From Kribbella italica (GTDB lineage: Bacteria > Actinomycetota > Actinomycetes > Propionibacteriales > Kribbellaceae), in NCBI RefSeq assembly GCF_014205135.1, contig NZ_JACHMY010000001.1, positions 2,294,001 to 2,358,000 on the forward strand: 64,000 nucleotides of DNA, in the 5' to 3' direction. Under the pieces are notes generated by a model. That model saw only the letters and a program-made list of their open reading frames with translations, was not told the origin of the DNA and did no database searches. Position numbers and translations under genes: made by a program. The first letter of the stretch is position 1; the number at the start of each line of letters is the position of its first letter. Below are positions 37,913-51,895 of the stretch, piece after piece.

Positions 37913-38674
37913 GTGCCAGAAACCACCGGAACCGCCCGCTCGGGCAGCGTGCAGTCGATCGAGCGCGCGTTCGGCCTGCTCGAACTGATGGCCGACGCCG
38001 GCGGAATGCTCGGCCTGTCCCAGCTGGCCACCGCCTCCGGACTCCCCCTGCCGACGATCCACCGCCTGGTCCGCACGCTCGTCGACCTCGGCTACGTCCG
38101 CCAGGAGCCGTCCCGCCAGTACGTACTCGGCCCGAAGCTGATCCGCCTCGGCGAGACCTCGTCACACATGCTCAGCGTCTGGGCCCGGCCGCACCTGGCC
38201 CGCCTGGTCGACGAGCTGGGCGAGTCCGCCAACCTGGCGATGCTCGACGGCGACCAGATCGTGTACCTCGCGCAGGTCCAGTCGCGGCACTCGATGCGCA
38301 TGTTCACCGAGGTCGGCCGCCGGGTCCTCCCCCACTGCACCGCCGTCGGCAAGGCGATCATGTCCCAGCTGCGCGACGCCGAGGTCCGCGAGCTGCTGCA
38401 GCGCACCGGCATGCCCAAGCACACCGAGACGACGATCACGGACGTCGAGGAATTCGCGGCCCAGCTCCGCAAGGCACAGCAGGACGGGTACGCCGCCGAC
38501 GAGGGCGAGCAGGAGCTCGGAGTCCGCTGCATCGCCGTACCGGTGTTCGACGTCCCGTCCCGCCTCGCACTCTCGATCTCGGGCCCCGCCGGCCGGATGA
38601 CCGAGACCCTGGTCGACCGGGCGATTCCCCTCCTCACCCAAGCCGCCCAGTCCCTGTCCGACGACCTGCGCTAG
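37913..38674 (+). CDS. IclR family transcriptional regulator
   Basis: A 253-residue regulator starting at GTG 37913 after AAGGAG. The N-terminal winged helix reads SIERAFGLLELMADAGGMLGLSQLATASGLPLPTIHRLVRTLVDLGYV. The C-terminal effector domain shows VGRRVLPHCTAVGKAIMSQL, DEGEQELGVRCIAVPVFD and LSISGPAGRMT, typical of IclR, GylR and AllR. It is divergent from the aldolase gene, with two TTCCG-N5-CGGAA-type sites between them. The effector is unknown. Its stop shares CTAG with the convergent oxidoreductase remnant. Confidence 0.92.
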   Translation: MPETTGTARSGSVQSIERAFGLLELMADAGGMLGLSQLATASGLPLPTIHRLVRTLVDLGYVRQEPSRQYVLGPKLIRLGETSSHMLSVWARPHLARLVDELGESANLAMLDGDQIVYLAQVQSRHSMRMFTEVGRRVLPHCTAVGKAIMSQLRDAEVRELLQRTGMPKHTETTITDVEEFAAQLRKAQQDGYAADEGEQELGVRCIAVPVFDVPSRLALSISGPAGRMTETLVDRAIPLLTQAAQSLSDDLR

Positions 38675-39381
38675 GACACCCGAAGGATCACGCGCGAAGT
38701 CCCAGCCCCCTGCTCGACGTCCTCATGCGCCGCAACGATCTCGTCCAAGGAGTACTCAGCCCGTACGTCGTACCGCAGATCCCCCGCGACCAACGCCGCC
38801 GTCAGCTCGCGCGCCGCGCGCTGGTTGGCCTCCTCGGGAAAGTCGTCGTTGCTGATGAACCGAACGGCGATGTTCTTGAACGCGAGCTGCCAGTACGGCA
38901 CCACCGGCCGGGTCTCGCCGGTCGCGTAGGTGTTGATCGACCCGTTGTACCGCAGCCCACCGGAGGTCACCGCCCGATGCCCGGTGATCCCAGGGATCCC
39001 CAGCCCCGCCGCCTGGGCACTCTCCACGACATCAGGCAGTACGACGGCATGCTCCGACGGCACGACGGTGCACTCCGCCGCCGTCCCGCCCGGCCGGTAC
39101 GACTGGGCCAGGAACACCCATACCCGCGACCCGATCCGGTCAGCCGGCACATCGTTGCCGACAGCATCGATCACCCCGACACCGTCCCCGTGCGGTACGA
39201 CGCGCGGAAACGCCATCGTCGACCCCCAGTACCCCTGCCGCTTGCCGATGTCCCCGACGTGGATCCCGGAGACCTCGACCCGGACGCGCACCTCACCGGG
39301 CGCAGGCTCGGGCACCGGCAGCTCGCCCACCCGCCGGACGTCGCGGGCCGCGCCCTGCGCGTCGTACCAGGCGGCCTTCAT
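38671..39381 (-). CDS. Quinone oxidoreductase-like protein lacking its Rossmann domain
   Basis: A 236-residue medium-chain dehydrogenase-type protein, where relatives have about 320. The N-terminal GroES-like half is intact (MKAAWYDAQGAARDVRRVGELPVPEPAPGEVRVRVEVSGIHVGDI, VVPHGDGVGVIDAVG). The frame then runs from GIPGITGHRAV straight into the C-terminal part (INTYATGETRPVVPYWQLAF, SLDEIVAAHEDVEQG). The roughly 90 residues with the nucleotide-binding GxGxxG motif are missing, so it probably cannot bind NADPH. The deletion is in frame. It overlaps the NmrA-like gene upstream by ATGA. Confidence 0.78.
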   Translation of the reverse strand: MKAAWYDAQGAARDVRRVGELPVPEPAPGEVRVRVEVSGIHVGDIGKRQGYWGSTMAFPRVVPHGDGVGVIDAVGNDVPADRIGSRVWVFLAQSYRPGGTAAECTVVPSEHAVVLPDVVESAQAAGLGIPGITGHRAVTSGGLRYNGSINTYATGETRPVVPYWQLAFKNIAVRFISNDDFPEEANQRAARELTAALVAGDLRYDVRAEYSLDEIVAAHEDVEQGAGTSRVILRVS

Positions 39382-40456: not shown

Positions 40457-41779
40457 CTAGACGTCGATGCGCGAGCCCATGATCACCACGCGGTCGCGCG
40501 GCAGCCCGAAGTACTCGGCCGCGTCCGCGCTGATGTGGGACGTCGCCACGAACAGCCGGCTGCGCCAGCGGGCCATGTCCGGCCGGTCCCCGAGCCGCAG
40601 TTCAATCGTCGACAGGAAGTACGACGTGTCGCTCAGGTCCAGCGACGCCACCTCAGAGCTCTGCTCGGCGGCCAGCCGCAGTACGGCGGCGACGTCCGGC
40701 GTCTGGACGTACCCGAACCGGGCCGTCACGTGGATGATCCGGTCGTCGTCGAACCCGAGGTCGTCGATCGTGATCCGGGTCTCGTCGGGGACCGACGGCA
40801 CCGGGTCGGTCTCGATCGAGAGGATGATGACGTTCTCGTGCAGGATGTGGTTGTGCTCGACGTTCGCGCGCATCGCCAGCGGCACGGTGTCCTTGCCGCG
40901 GTTGAGGAAGACCGCGGTCCCGGGCACCCGACGCAGCGGCGGCTGGGCTTCGTGCAGCTCGTTGACGAACGTGGTCAGTGAGCCTTCCTGACGCTCGCGG
41001 CGCGCGGTCACCAGTGCCCGCCCACGCTGCCAGGTGGTGAGCACGGTGAACACCGTGATGCCGATCAGCAGCGGCAGCCAGGCGCCGTGCACGAGCTTGG
41101 TCAGATTCGCGCCGAGGAAGAGCAGCTCGAAGGACAGGAAGACGGCACCGCCACCGAACACCACCCACAGCGGCTTCCGCCACTGCCGGCGGACCAGGTA
41201 GAAGAACAGCACGGTCGTGATCGTGACCGTGGCGGTCACCGCCATCCCGAAGGCGAAGGCGAGCGCCGCCGAGGTCTGGAACGCGAAGACCAGTGAGTAC
41301 CGAGATCATCAGCGCCCAGTGATCCACGGGACGTAGATCTGCCCGATCGTCCGGCTGGAGGCGTGCAGGATCCGTAGCCGCGGCAGGTATCCGAGCTGGA
41401 CCGCCTGACGAGCGACCGAGAACGCGTCGAAGATGCCGAGCCCGGCCAGCAGCACCTTCGTCCGCCGGCTGCCGTTGGTCCCGTGGCTGCGGATCAGCGT
41501 GATCAGCGTGAGGATGCCGCCCTCGCCGTGGTTGTCGGCGCGCAGGATCAGCAGTACGTACTTGATCGTCACGATGATCGTGACCGCCCAGAAGATCAGC
41601 GACACGATCCCGAACACGCTGTCGGCCGAGACCGGCACCGGGTGCGGGTCGCCGGGGTTGAACACGGTCTGGATCGTGTAGATCGGGCTCGTCCCGATGT
41701 CGCCGAACACGACACCGAGCGCCCCGATGGTCAGCAGGGTCCGGGACTGTACCCGGCCGTCCACAGGGTCGGCGCTCAT
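40457..41779 (-). pseudogene. kup: Broken kup potassium uptake gene
   Basis: The N-terminal fragment (41309-41779) starts MSADPVDGRVQSRTLLTIGALG and has the KUP signature GVVFGDIGTSPIYT. After VLLAGLGIF it jumps to DAFSVARQAVQLGYLPRLRI, skipping roughly 190 residues of membrane core. It then stops: YVPWI-TGR followed by two TGA codons (41311-41306). The C-terminal fragment continues in the same frame (LVFAFQTSAALAFAFGMAVT ... to 40457). Comparison with the expected YVPWINWALM... suggests a one-base and a two-base loss about 30 bases apart. Kup normally imports K+ with protons and has about 630 residues. The gene cannot be functional as written. Confidence 0.85.
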
Positions 41780-41882
41780 CGCGTCAGCCTCTTCACGGCC
41801 GCATTGAACCACCGCCGGTTGTCCGCCAGACCGATCACACTCACCTGGTGCTGTGAGAATTCTGTGAGAAAGTGGTGGCGCA

Positions 41883-45805: not shown

Positions 45806-47959
45806 CTAACTCGCCATGACCTGCGCTGCCCGCTCCCAGACCCGGTGGAGACCGACCGTGTCGAGGAGCTCGGCAGTGAAGGGCTTGGCGACGCTCTCCC
45901 CCACTACGACGCCAGGTGCGGTCGTGTCGATCCCAGCGGCGGTGAGGACCTGGTCGCCGTCGCCCCAGGCGGCGATCACCTTGCAGTGGCGGAAGAGCTC
46001 GCCCAGCAGGATCGACAGCTTGATGTCGGTGAAGTCGGGAATGCCTCCGGCGACCACCACCGCGTCGTACTCGATCGATCGGGTGGTGAGCAGCGTCCGC
46101 TCGACGATCTGCTCCGAGCGCGCCCGCTTGACGACTCCGCCCAGCGGCGCGATCAGCCGCAGTACGGCGCCGCGCGCCTCCACGGCGCGACGCAGCTTCG
46201 TGATCCCGGCCAGGTCAGCGCCCGGAGCCGCGAAGACGCCGATGACCCGCCCGGTGATCGAACCCGGACCCGGCGGGACCTGCGACAACGCCGGCGACGG
46301 AACGACCTCGGCCGGCGCTCCGGCGGGCGCGGGCAGCCCGAGCCCTTCGGCCACCGCCGCGCACAGGTCCGCGTCGACGTTCGCCAGTACGCCGAGCATC
46401 CGCTCGCGAATCGGTTGCTCGTAGCACTTGCCGAGCTCGAACGTGAACGCCTCGACGATGTGGACCTTCTCCACCTCGCTCATGCTCGCCCAGAACAGCG
46501 TCGCCTGCGAGAAGTGGTCCGCGAACGACACCGGGTTCTCCCGGACCGCCCGCCCCTCGATCTCGCGCGGCACCTGCACGTACCCGCCCTCGTCCTCCCG
46601 CGCGGGCCGCGGCGCGGCGTCGATGCTGTTCGGCAGGTACGGCGAAACGCCCTGGTGCACGGCGGTCTGGTGCATCCCGTCGCGCAGGTTGTCGTTGACC
46701 GCGGCGTGCGGGCAGTTGATCGGCAGCTGGGTGAAGTTGGGTCCGCCGAGCCGCGTCAGCTGGGTGTCCAGGTACGAGAACAGCCGGGCCTGCATCAACG
46801 GATCGTTGGTCACCTCGATGCCCGGCACCAGGTTCCCGGTGTGGAACGCGACCTGCTCGGTCTCGGCGAAGTAGTTCGTCGGGTTGCGGTCCAGCGTCAG
46901 CTTGCCGACCAGCTGCACCTCGGCCAGCTCCTCCGGCACCAGCTTCGTCGGGTCGAGCAGGTCGATCCCCTCGAAGGTCTCGTCCGCGGAGTCCGGGAAC
47001 AGCTGCAACCCCAGCTCGAACTCCAGCGGCGCGCCGTTCTCGATCCCGTCGGCCATGTCCCGGCGGTGGAAGTCCGGGTCGGTCCCGGCCGCGAGCTGCG
47101 CCTCCTCCCAGACCAGCGAGTGCACGCCGGCCACCGGCTTCCAGTGGAACTTGGCCAGCGCCGTCGCACCGTCGCCGTTCACCAGCCGGAAGGTGTGGAC
47201 GCCGAAGCCCTCCATCGTCCGGTACGAGCGCGGGATGCCGCGGTCCGACATCGCCCACATCACGTGGTGGGTCGCCTCGGTGTGCAGCGACACGAAGTCC
47301 CAGAACGTGTCGTGCGCGGACTGCGCCTGCGGGATCTCCCGGTCCGGGTGCGGTTTGCCGGCGTGGATGATGTCGGGGAACTTGATCCCGTCCTGGATGA
47401 AGAACACCGGCATGTTGTTGCCGACGAGGTCGAAGTTGCCCTCCTCGGTGTAGAACTTCACCGCGAAGCCGCGGACGTCGCGCACAGTGTCGGCCGAGCC
47501 GCGTGAGCCGAGCACCGTGGAGAACCGCACGAACACCGGCGTCTCCCGGCCCTGCTGCAGGAACCCAGCCTTGCTGGCTGCGGTCGCGTTCCCGTACGCC
47601 GTGAAGGTGCCGTGCGCGGCCGCCCCGCGCGCGTGCACGACACGCTCCGGGATCCGCTCATGGTCGAAGTGGGTGATCTTCTCGCGCAGGTGGAAGTCCT
47701 CGAGCAGCGTCGGCCCCCGCGACCCCGCCTTCAGCGAGTGGTCCGTGTCCGGCAGCCGCACACCCTGCGCGGTGGTCAGGTAGTCCCCTGCCTGCGCCCG
47801 TGCGGTCTGTACGGCGTCGACGCTTTCTGCCCTTGCCCCCACAGCCGTTGTTTTGCCGCCTCGGGTTGTGCGCCCGCCCCCGGCCTTGGCCGCCGCCTTT
47901 CGTCCGGTGGGACCGGCCGCCGTAGGCGCTGCTTGGTCGGCCTTGCGTTTCGGGGGCAC
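45806..47959 (-). CDS. katE: Large-subunit catalase (HPII/KatE type)
   Basis: A 717-residue clade 2 catalase, degrading hydrogen peroxide. GTG 47959 (VPPKRKADQ) has GAGGAG eight bases upstream and is preferred over an in-frame TTG 47974 that overlaps that site. A basic Ala/Gly-rich extension of about 45 residues precedes the core. Active-site His lies in [14 protein letters not shown], Asn in [17 protein letters not shown], and the haem-ligand Tyr in [14 protein letters not shown]. The C-terminal 150 residues are the flavodoxin/DJ-1-like domain of large catalases ([15 protein letters not shown]). It is convergent with rocD. Confidence 0.96.
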
Positions 47960-48028
47960 GGGGCGTCTCCTCAAGTGGCTGGATATGACACATCCCGGTA
48001 CCCGGGCGCAATCAGGTCGGCCAGCAGA

Positions 48029-48247
48029 TCAGCCAGCCCACCCCGCGCCCGCCCCACGACTCGTGCGTACGGTCAGGTTCAGCGGCTGCACCCCACGGAA
48101 CCCCGCGTCGAGCAGCCGGAACCACAGATCCCGATCCTCCCCGGTCGCGATCGGCCGGTAACCGCCAACCGCGAGAAACGCGCTCCCCCGGACGCCGAAG
48201 TTCGCGCCGTGCACGTGGTCGTGGCTCAACGGCAGGATCCCGTCCCA
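48029..48247 (-). pseudogene. C-terminal remnant of a family 2 glycosyltransferase
   Basis: About 70 codons read DGILPLSHDHVHGANFGVRGSAFLAVGGYRPIATGEDRDLWFRLLDAGFRGVQPLNLTVRTS, the end of a GT2 enzyme (the GANFGVR...GGY..I...ED.DLW pattern). The N-terminal donor-binding half is absent. The fragment is joined out of frame to the methyltransferase remnant upstream. It is part of a collapsed four-gene cluster. Confidence 0.75.
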
Positions 48248-48482
48248 CCAGCTCCCGCGTCAGCTCGCCGACCCCGCAGGCCGGCTCCAGCACCCGTCGA
48301 CATCGCTCCAACGGCAACGCGGCGAGCAGCACCGCCCGCTTCCGCCGTTCGTACCAGCTGTCCGCCGTGTGCCAAGGATCGTCCGCCGCCCGGTAGAGCT
48401 CGGCAGACCGCTCGACCGGCGCCGACTCGGTCCGCGGCTCCCGGAACTGCACCTCGAAGTCGCGGTCGAAGTGCGTCAGCAT
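48240..48482 (-). pseudogene. N-terminal remnant of a SAM-dependent methyltransferase
   Basis: The frame starts at ATG 48482, overlapping the previous stop as TGATG. It reads FDRDFEVQFREPRTESAP...AADDPWHTADSWYERRKRAVLLAALP and reaches the SAM-binding motif VLEPACGVGELTREL, then runs out of homology after about 80 residues at a junction with glycosyltransferase sequence. The rest of the enzyme is missing. NodS-like methyltransferases of this form are about 200 residues long. Confidence 0.72.
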
Positions 48483-48723
48483 CAGCGGGTCGAGATCGGG
48501 TCCTCACCGTTCGGTCCCGGCACGAGCTGGGAGACGAACGCAGCCAAGGCCTTCTCCTTCCCCACCCGCAGCCGCTCCGGCAACGGCATCCGGACGGCCC
48601 GCGACCTTGGTGGGCGTTCGTCGTACGGCGTCATCCAGTGCCACATCCAGATCGGGTACGACCAGCGGTGCGTCTCGACCGGCGCCGCGGCCACTCGTCC
48701 TCGCCGGTCAGCGGTCGCGTCAC
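48482..48723 (-). pseudogene. Remnant of a PIG-L family deacetylase
   Basis: GTG 48723 overlaps the stop of the acyl-CoA dehydrogenase remnant and reads MTRPLTGEDEW, a plausible N-terminus. In a different frame the C-terminal part follows (THRWSYPIWMWHWMTPYDERPPRSRAVRMPLP..KEKALAAFVSQLVPGPNGEDPI). The zinc-binding HPDDE region and the whole catalytic core are gone. About 80 of an expected 230 or so codons remain. Confidence 0.68.
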
Positions 48724-49504
48724 GCCGTCGCCTCCAGGAACCGTCGGCCCAAAGCGGCGTAGTCGCGCTCCGCGTGGTGCTGGCGGACGTACACCTGCAG
48801 GTCGGCGAACAACTGCGCGAACCCGCGGTCCCGCGACAACGGCGTCGGCCCGACGATCCGCGGCACCCGGTCGGCCACCGCGCGGGCCGTCTGCTCAGTG
48901 CTTGCCCGAAGCAACCAGACCTCCGTCATCACGTCGGCCTTCGGATCGGCGTCGATCGCCGCCGCGGTCCGGCGCAGCAGCCCTTCAGTCGCGGCCAGCG
49001 ACGTCCGAAGCTCCCCGACGTGCGCAAGCTGATGCTCGTCCGCACCCTGACCGGCGCGCAGGTAGTCGGTCGTCCGTTCCACGAGACCGAGCGAACCGCC
49101 GTACCAGACGGCGGCGACTCCTCCACCGCCCCACCAGAATCCACGACGACCCGTGGAGAAGCCGGGCGCATCGATCCGGGGGCCGACGGCAACATCCTCG
49201 AAGATCACGTCCGGGCTGTCGGACGCATCCATCCCCACCGCCTGCCAGCTGTCGTCCACCCGAACGATGCCCGCCTGATCCAGCGGTACGTCGTACAGGC
49301 TGCTCTCGCCCTCGACGGACAACGCGACCACTAGCGCCCGGTCCAACGAATGAGCGCCCGAGCAGAACCGCACCGTCCCGGCCAGCCGTCCGTCCCTGCT
49401 CCTGGATCGGGCAGCTTCAGGTCGCCACTTTCCGCAAGCTCCCGAAGCCTCTCCGCCACCGATCGCGCCGTCCGCCGCGCTCCGTCCGCCAAGTCGTCAC
49501 CCAT
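48720..49504 (-). pseudogene. Acyl-CoA dehydrogenase-like gene with internal deletion and frameshift
   Basis: ATG 49504 starts MGDDLADGARRTARSVAERLRELAESGDLKLPDPGAGTDG, a normal N-terminus. The reading frame then changes, and homology resumes at GTVRFCSGAHSLDRALVVALSVEGES in the frame that ends at 48720. About 100 residues of the N-terminal domain are missing between them. The C-terminal helical domain is well kept (GLVERTTDYLRAG, HVGELRTSLAATEGLLRRTAAAI). Read as a gene on its own from GTG 49373 it would lack part of the FAD/substrate domain. It heads the collapsed cluster 48029-49504. Confidence 0.75.
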
Positions 49505-49546: not shown

Positions 49547-49903
49547 TCAGGCGGCACCCCAGACCAGACAGAACTCGTTGCCTGCCGGATCGCGCAGGCA
49601 GGCCCACTCGTCGCCGTCGTAGAGGTCGAGGGCCCGGGTCGCGCCGAGAGACAGGGCACGTTCGATCGCGGCGTCGCGGCGATCGGCCGGGACGCGCAGG
49701 TCGAGGTGGACCGGGTTCTTGCGGTTGTCCGGCGGGTCCGCGACCAGGCAGAAGTCCAGGCGGACAGTTGCCCCGTGCAACTCGACGACCTCGTCCCCGT
49801 TGGCCCGCAACTCACCCCCGAGAAACCGCTGCCAGAACCGCCCGACCGCCCAGGGGTCCTGACAGTCGATCGCGACCGCGGCCAGCTCGGGTAGGTCGTC
49901 CAT
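49547..49903 (-). CDS. VOC/glyoxalase-like protein
   Basis: A 118-residue single-domain protein starting at ATG 49903 (MDDLPELAAVAIDCQDPWAVGRFWQRFLGGEL). It shows the beta-alpha-beta-beta-beta pattern of the glyoxalase-like family with HLDLRV and DEWACLRDPAGNEFCLVWG near the end. Metal ligands may be His and Glu at these strands. Such proteins range from resistance factors to hydrolases; the substrate is unknown. Confidence 0.85.
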   Translation of the reverse strand: MDDLPELAAVAIDCQDPWAVGRFWQRFLGGELRANGDEVVELHGATVRLDFCLVADPPDNRKNPVHLDLRVPADRRDAAIERALSLGATRALDLYDGDEWACLRDPAGNEFCLVWGAA

Positions 49904-50938: not shown

Positions 50939-51895
50939 GTGGCCCTAGCCACCCGCGCCGTCAACGGCTACACCTGGCACAACGCCCCGGACGGCGGCGC
51001 GTGCTTCGTCGACGGCAGCGGCTGGATCTACGTGTCCAACTCCGAGGTCGGCAGCGGCAGCGGTGGCGCGAGCGCGCTCCGGTTCAACAGCAGCGGGACG
51101 GTCACCAGCGCGTACCGGATCCTGTCCGGTACGACGCAGAACTGCTCCGGCGGCGCGACCCCGTGGGGCACCTGGCTGTCGTGTGAGGAGACCGACCTCG
51201 GCTACGTCTGGGAGACCGACCCGTACGGCACCAAGGCCGCCGTACGCCGTCCGGCCCTTGGCCGCTTCTCCCACGAGGCCGCCGCGGCGGACCCTGACCG
51301 CCGCGTCATCTACCTGACCGAAGACGTCCCCGACGGCGGGTTCTACCGCTTCGTCCCGACCACCTGGGGCGACCTGTCGGCCGGCACGCTGCAGGTCCTG
51401 CGCGAGTCCGGCAGCACCCTGTCGTGGGTCACCGTCCCCGATCCCGACGGCAGCCCGACCCGGACCCGCCGGCAGGTCTCGGGGATGAAGAAGTTCAACG
51501 GCGGCGAAGGCTGCTACTACCGCAACGGCACCTGCTTCTTCACCACCAAGGGCGACAACCGCGTCTGGGCCTACAACGCGGCGAACAACACCATCGCGAT
51601 CGCGTACGACGACGACCTGACCCCGAACCCGCCGCTGACCGGCGTCGACAACATCACCGGCACCTCGTCGGGCGACCTGTTCGTCGCCGAGGACGGCGGC
51701 AACCTGGAGATCTGCATCATCACCCCGAACGACATCGTCGCGCCGTTCCTCCGGGTCACCGGCCAGTCCGGCTCGGAGCTGTGCGGAGTCGCCTTCAACC
51801 CCGCCGGGAACCGCCTCTACTTCTCGTCCCAGCGCGGAACGAGCGGGTCGAGCAGCGGCGGGATCACGTACGAGGTCACCGGCTCGTTCCGTTGA
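50939..51895 (+). CDS. DUF839/PhoX-like beta-propeller protein, 5'-truncated
   Basis: A 318-residue protein of the PhoX-like DUF839 family: YTWHNAPDGGACFVDGSGWIYVSNSE, NCSGGATPWGTWLSCEET, GRFSHEAAAADP, EDVPDGGFYRFVP, GDNRVWAYN and LFVAEDGGNLEICII. Full-length relatives have a Tat signal peptide and about 60 more N-terminal residues; here the frame starts at a weak GTG 50939 inside the first blade. The upstream 95 bases carry an unrelated open stretch ending at TAG 50946-50948. Probably a non-exported remnant. Confidence 0.68.
   Translation: MALATRAVNGYTWHNAPDGGACFVDGSGWIYVSNSEVGSGSGGASALRFNSSGTVTSAYRILSGTTQNCSGGATPWGTWLSCEETDLGYVWETDPYGTKAAVRRPALGRFSHEAAAADPDRRVIYLTEDVPDGGFYRFVPTTWGDLSAGTLQVLRESGSTLSWVTVPDPDGSPTRTRRQVSGMKKFNGGEGCYYRNGTCFFTTKGDNRVWAYNAANNTIAIAYDDDLTPNPPLTGVDNITGTSSGDLFVAEDGGNLEICIITPNDIVAPFLRVTGQSGSELCGVAFNPAGNRLYFSSQRGTSGSSSGGITYEVTGSFR

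Follow-up and report, generated by a model that had tools for sequence, protein, structure and literature searches.

Remains of a four-gene operon beside a catalase gene of Kribbella italica, very probably a young pseudogene operon that deletions are removing

The DNA analysed here (the window) is a stretch of 64,000 nucleotides (nt), positions 2294001–2358000 of the single 8.9-Mb contig of Kribbella italica, whose genome is 100% complete. Between 48008 and 49504, on the minus strand, it carries the remains of an operon, about 1.5 kb of which are left vs about 3 kb in relatives. Read from 49504, the pieces belong to an acyl-CoA-dehydrogenase-like gene, a PIG-L deacetylase, a NodS-like methyltransferase and a family 2 glycosyltransferase (GT2), in that order. 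They lie between an intact catalase gene (45806–47974) and a glyoxalase-like gene starting at 49547. An earlier note on this DNA had placed a collapsed cluster at 48029–49504; its right end stands, whereas its left end must be moved, as the GT2 C-terminus runs to about 48008 in another frame. The adjoining segment 47938–48003 matches the sequence upstream of a related catalase gene (L053) and not GT2. A scan for promoters and terminators found none, and the repeats within the remnant are short two-copy families that carry no weight as evidence.

Intact copies of this operon are found in Kribbella VKM Ac-2568, Labedaea, Pseudonocardia and Amycolatopsis. The earlier note's identification of the four genes, with their order and strand, agrees with matches to the intact loci of Labedaea (L021) and Kribbella (L017), which have the same order and 68–76% DNA identity (for the Labedaea operon, 69% in the dehydrogenase, 72% in the PIG-L/methyltransferase and 75% in the GT2). 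The chained BLAST score of the remnant to the Labedaea operon is 607, while 40 other stretches of the window, used as a chance control, score 262 at most, with a median of 184. The identities of the PIG-L, methyltransferase and GT2 pieces are taken from these matches to intact loci, since the dehydrogenase C-terminal domain is the only Pfam match among the pieces to pass its cut-off (PF00441, 24.3 bits for a cut-off of 22.4), the GT2 match being sub-threshold (PF13632, 23.3 bits for a cut-off of 27). In the intact homologues, the PIG-L, methyltransferase/NodS and GT2 domains are clear. The size and gene order seen in relatives also uphold the view of a cluster of about 3 kb when intact; relatives share the four-gene order, the absence of which the note had named as the observation that would speak against it.

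The first piece (49403–49504) consists of about 34 dehydrogenase codons from the ATG and matches residues 4–36 of the Labedaea dehydrogenase (tblastn, 48% identity, E 8e-6). It ends at the deletion junction D1 (49385–49403), where the frame changes and, by global alignment, 185 nt are gone relative to L017 and 184 nt relative to L021. The middle and C-terminal part of the dehydrogenase follows (48720–49400; 64% amino acid identity to L017 and 60% to L021), with an open stretch of 217 codons from 49373. After the GTGA at 48723–48720, where the dehydrogenase stop overlaps the PIG-L start, come the first 11 PIG-L codons (48691–48723), recognized by a weak alignment to residues 1–11 of L017 (E 2.2) together with their position and a comparison of the sequences. 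The junction D2 (48690–48696) changes the frame and marks the loss of about 430–440 nt of PIG-L (about 435 nt, a size summed over broken alignment blocks, with the sequences compared), including the region of the HPDDE motif, which is accordingly absent from the remnant. The C-terminal part of PIG-L (48494–48691; 55% amino acid identity to L017 and 57% to L021) leads to a 1-nt frame change inside the PIG-L/methyltransferase coding region (48485–48500), which is a 1-nt gap in five of five reference alignments. The end of PIG-L and the first part of the methyltransferase (48246–48482; 77% amino acid identity to L017) then run up to the junction D3 (48241–48249), where about 856 nt are gone from the methyltransferase interior into GT2, by alignment to L021. 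The C-terminal half of the GT2 catalytic domain (48061–48243; 66% amino acid identity to L021) is followed near the gene end by an 8-nt loss that changes the frame (48055–48060; a gap vs both L021 and the Pseudonocardia locus L023) and by the extreme C-terminus in another frame (48008–48059), the alignments to L021 and L023 ending at about 48008–48014.

These losses were measured against five references. D3 and the 8-nt loss were measured mainly on Labedaea, the fetched stretch of L017 being without GT2, and the 8-nt loss also on L023. The Pseudonocardia and Amycolatopsis alignments (L023–L025) give the same outline, but with the large gaps split into several pieces. The claim that each gene lacks large blocks is thus borne out by about 185, 435 and 856 nt absent by alignment to intact relatives. 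With these three unequal losses and the two small frame changes, no frame is kept through any whole gene, and every gene is disabled: the dehydrogenase by D1, PIG-L by D2 and the 1-nt change, the methyltransferase by D3, and GT2 by D3 and the 8-nt change. A working protein of the original type is not to be expected from such a sequence. As to direct repeats, the left parent of L017 also contains the sequence at the D1 junction, GGACGGAC, with references too distant to prove homology of the ends; at D2, TGG occurs at the left end in L017 and Labedaea and at the right end in L017 and Amycolatopsis L024, not in Labedaea or L025, again with references too distant; at the ends of D3, none was seen against these distant references.

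The earlier note had held that the junctions between genes survive while the gene interiors are lost. One of the three supposed junctions has survived, another was no junction in the first place, and the third is deleted. The GTGA is a real gene overlap, as it corresponds to ATGA in L021 and L023 and to a 16-nt overlap in L017. In contrast, the TGATG at 48484–48480 is not a junction in any of the 40 loci examined with the Kribbella PIG-L-methyltransferase protein as query (39 distinct loci, L019 and L067 being the same place; L075 matched only from residue 167). PIG-L and methyltransferase are fused in one frame in 27 of these 40 rows and split in 13, and the stop of PIG-L in every split row falls at the place of Kribbella residue 238 or later, no fewer than 12 codons beyond the TGATG of the window, which corresponds to residue 226. 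The window reads across the split-type boundary without a stop and is thus of the fused type, as in its nearest relatives: the seven nearest full matches (L017, L021 and L023–L027) are all fused, while the Pseudonocardia locus L022 is split. The TGATG resembles a stop/start overlap because the 1-nt frame change sits one to five codons before it. In Amycolatopsis L024, the methyltransferase and GT2 genes overlap; in the remnant their junction lies inside D3 and is gone. A process that preserves gene junctions while removing interiors could claim the retained GTGA in its favour but, with the TGATG and the deleted junction both against it, deserves practically no credence. The case also calls for caution, as start/stop overlaps read from sequence alone can arise by chance from a frame change inside one gene.

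The remaining sequence shows very little decay. Among positions invariant in other homologues, the changes number 0 of 30 in the dehydrogenase, 1 of 10 in PIG-L, 0 of 16 in the methyltransferase and 1 of 10 in GT2, i.e., 2 of 66 in total (the four larger pieces, with rows of more than 30% gaps excluded from each). Changes unique to the window vs the intact Kribbella copy are 20 vs 15 in the dehydrogenase, 5 vs 9 in PIG-L and 4 vs 4 in the methyltransferase, the comparison covering three pieces as GT2 has no Kribbella copy. Third-position guanine-plus-cytosine (GC) content is 0.85, 0.91, 0.91 and 0.88 in the four larger pieces and 0.86–0.94 in the neighbouring genes. The scant point decay and the near-normal third-position GC content therefore indicate a recent loss, and the inactivation is, as judged from the sequence, young relative to the split from L017. 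Relaxed constraint, a mark of old pseudogenes that is not required of young ones, was not seen at the 66 invariant positions; this speaks to the age of the remnant, not to its identity, and is expected if the inactivation is recent.

Taken as a whole, the remnant is very probably a recently inactivated operon, a young pseudogene operon in the course of removal by deletions; it is an ordinary dead operon and not a new arrangement with preserved gene borders. In keeping with this, a search of the genome at E ≤ 0.001 brought up no second copy of the dehydrogenase piece. At least five deletions (about 185, 435, 856, 1 and 8 nt) cut or frame-shifted every gene of a once intact operon; they would have arisen through ordinary errors of replication or recombination once the pathway was no longer under selection. 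Several points weigh against this reading. Neither the same remnant nor an intermediate one was found in any sister genome, the genomes of the genus having been searched with the dehydrogenase piece, so that the order and the cause of the events are unseen; the references are mostly 60–75% DNA-identical over the pieces, which leaves the deletion ends uncertain by several bases; and third-position GC content drops to 0.735 in the 34-codon N-terminal piece. The only odd point is the gathering of five lesions with almost no point decay, unlike Salmonella pseudogenes, of which 346 of 378 had one lesion and few had lost more than 20% (PMC2916853). The deletions might have come in one short burst, for example a complex template-switching or break-repair episode, but this is improbable; if true, a nearly undecayed operon would have been halved before it had time to accumulate point mutations.

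Arrival of the operon already broken, by horizontal transfer or recombination into the catalase neighbourhood, could be combined with recent inactivation and deletion, and is unlikely without being far-fetched. It would fit with the presence of the dehydrogenase in only 2 of 38 genomes of the genus (K. italica itself and the intact copy of G020), with the lack of remnants in the fetched flanks of all six related catalase loci, and with the location of operon and catalase on different contigs in G020; the same remnant was found beside none of the six related catalases and 15 related glyoxalases, within the fetched flanks. However, repeated loss also accounts for the patchy presence, and the methyltransferase piece is nearest to another Kribbella (77% vs 63% for Labedaea), which makes common ancestry within the genus likely.

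An assembly fault, in which blocks of a full operon present in the real genome dropped out of the consensus, is less probable still. Five indels in a nearly intact remaining sequence could reflect a local consensus error, but the contig is single and the genome complete, and the lost PIG-L part, the only lost part searched separately, was not found elsewhere in the genome, where only paralogues of 28–40% identity occur. A codon-usage frame painter, which counts only out-of-frame lesions without a nearby stop and so misses many, gave 1 frame break in a 400-kb sample of the genome vs 0 (G024) and 3 (G014) in equal samples of two relatives, and 1 in the window, at the remnant operon; these sampled rates do not suggest a generally poor assembly. 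Finally, that the pieces still make short working proteins, such as the 217-codon dehydrogenase part, is very improbable. This stretch is open and the pieces retain invariant residues, but it starts inside the middle domain and has no N-terminal domain, PIG-L is without its HPDDE motif region, and the window branch carries no fewer changes than that of the intact Kribbella copy (29 vs 28 over three pieces). The pieces are conserved because the loss is recent.

Other genes that look damaged were noticed in the window. A KUP-type potassium-transporter gene (40457–41800, minus strand), 6–8 kb from the remnant operon, has a 594-nt in-frame loss compared with L102 and L103 as well as 1- and 2-nt changes with stops between them, and retains 76–84% identity over most of the rest; the short sequence CGGCGCCT is found at both ends of the lost block in L102. 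If the deletions of the operon had come in a burst, the KUP lesions would stem from that local tendency too. A PhoX-like gene (50939–51895, plus strand) has about 90% DNA identity to a gene of G006 but lacks roughly the first 60–70 codons, and a zinc-type alcohol-dehydrogenase-like open reading frame (38671–39200, minus strand) seems to be without much of its nucleotide-binding part, as its Pfam match is confined to the second part of that domain. Stretches 38022–38675 and 50949–51891 flank, in G006, about 14.8 kb without a listed match to the window, and the region 38.7–50.9 kb therefore looks like a variable region. A laxer count, of ill-fitting coding segments, is noisy (51/338, 85/346, 66/330 and, in the window, 6/59, with 1 of 19 in 38.6–55 kb vs 5 of 40 in the rest) and gives no sign of a local hot zone, which speaks against a decaying region.

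The intact unit consists of an acyl-CoA-dehydrogenase-like flavoenzyme, a PIG-L and a NodS-like methyltransferase, fused or split, and a GT2, encoded by overlapping or close genes. As a set of three or four genes it is common in soil actinobacteria, with intact copies throughout the class, and it was seen at L017, L021, L023–L030 and L054–L081. Among named relatives, Kribbella sp. VKM Ac-2568 (L020) is the nearest by this locus, and G020 belongs to the same genus. The dehydrogenase piece is matched in 6 of 39 relatives, K. italica included, two of these matches being weak. In a class-wide sample, the PIG-L-methyltransferase protein is matched at E ≤ 1e-40 in 28 of 296 genomes; within the fetched stretch, a dehydrogenase match is present at 26 of these 28 loci and a GT2 match at 24, some loci being cut by contig ends and a few having GT2 in another position. 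The intact pathway may build or modify an amino-sugar-containing glycoside: a sugar would be attached by GT2, removal of an acetyl group would fall to PIG-L, methylation to the NodS-like enzyme and oxidation to the flavoenzyme. The modified glycolipid or sugar suggested earlier as a possible product is plausible. The literature searches made found no description of this dehydrogenase/PIG-L-methyltransferase/GT2 unit, a widespread actinobacterial operon to which the remnant draws attention.

The remnant resembles the intact actinobacterial operons in its gene order, its first overlap and the 60–77% amino acid identity of most pieces to the nearest copies (55–57% for the PIG-L piece). It differs from them in being broken, and the nearest Kribbella copy lacks GT2 in the fetched stretch. 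The operon can also be compared with the Nod-factor genes nodC, nodB and nodS, in which a GT2 enzyme, a deacetylase and a NodS-like methyltransferase are likewise grouped. PIG-L belongs to a deacetylase family different from that of the Nod-factor set, the actinobacterial operon adds a dehydrogenase and, with only NodS models scored, the intact Kribbella homologue reaches 50.5 bits vs the NCBIfam equivalog cut-off of 300 for NodS. As in the Salmonella pseudogene survey (PMC2916853), the genes are young inactivated ones, deletion is the main eroding force and there is little sequence decay; unlike there, about half of a whole operon is gone by five lesions. The remnant thus offers a clean example of a young operon shrinking by deletion before substitution decay.
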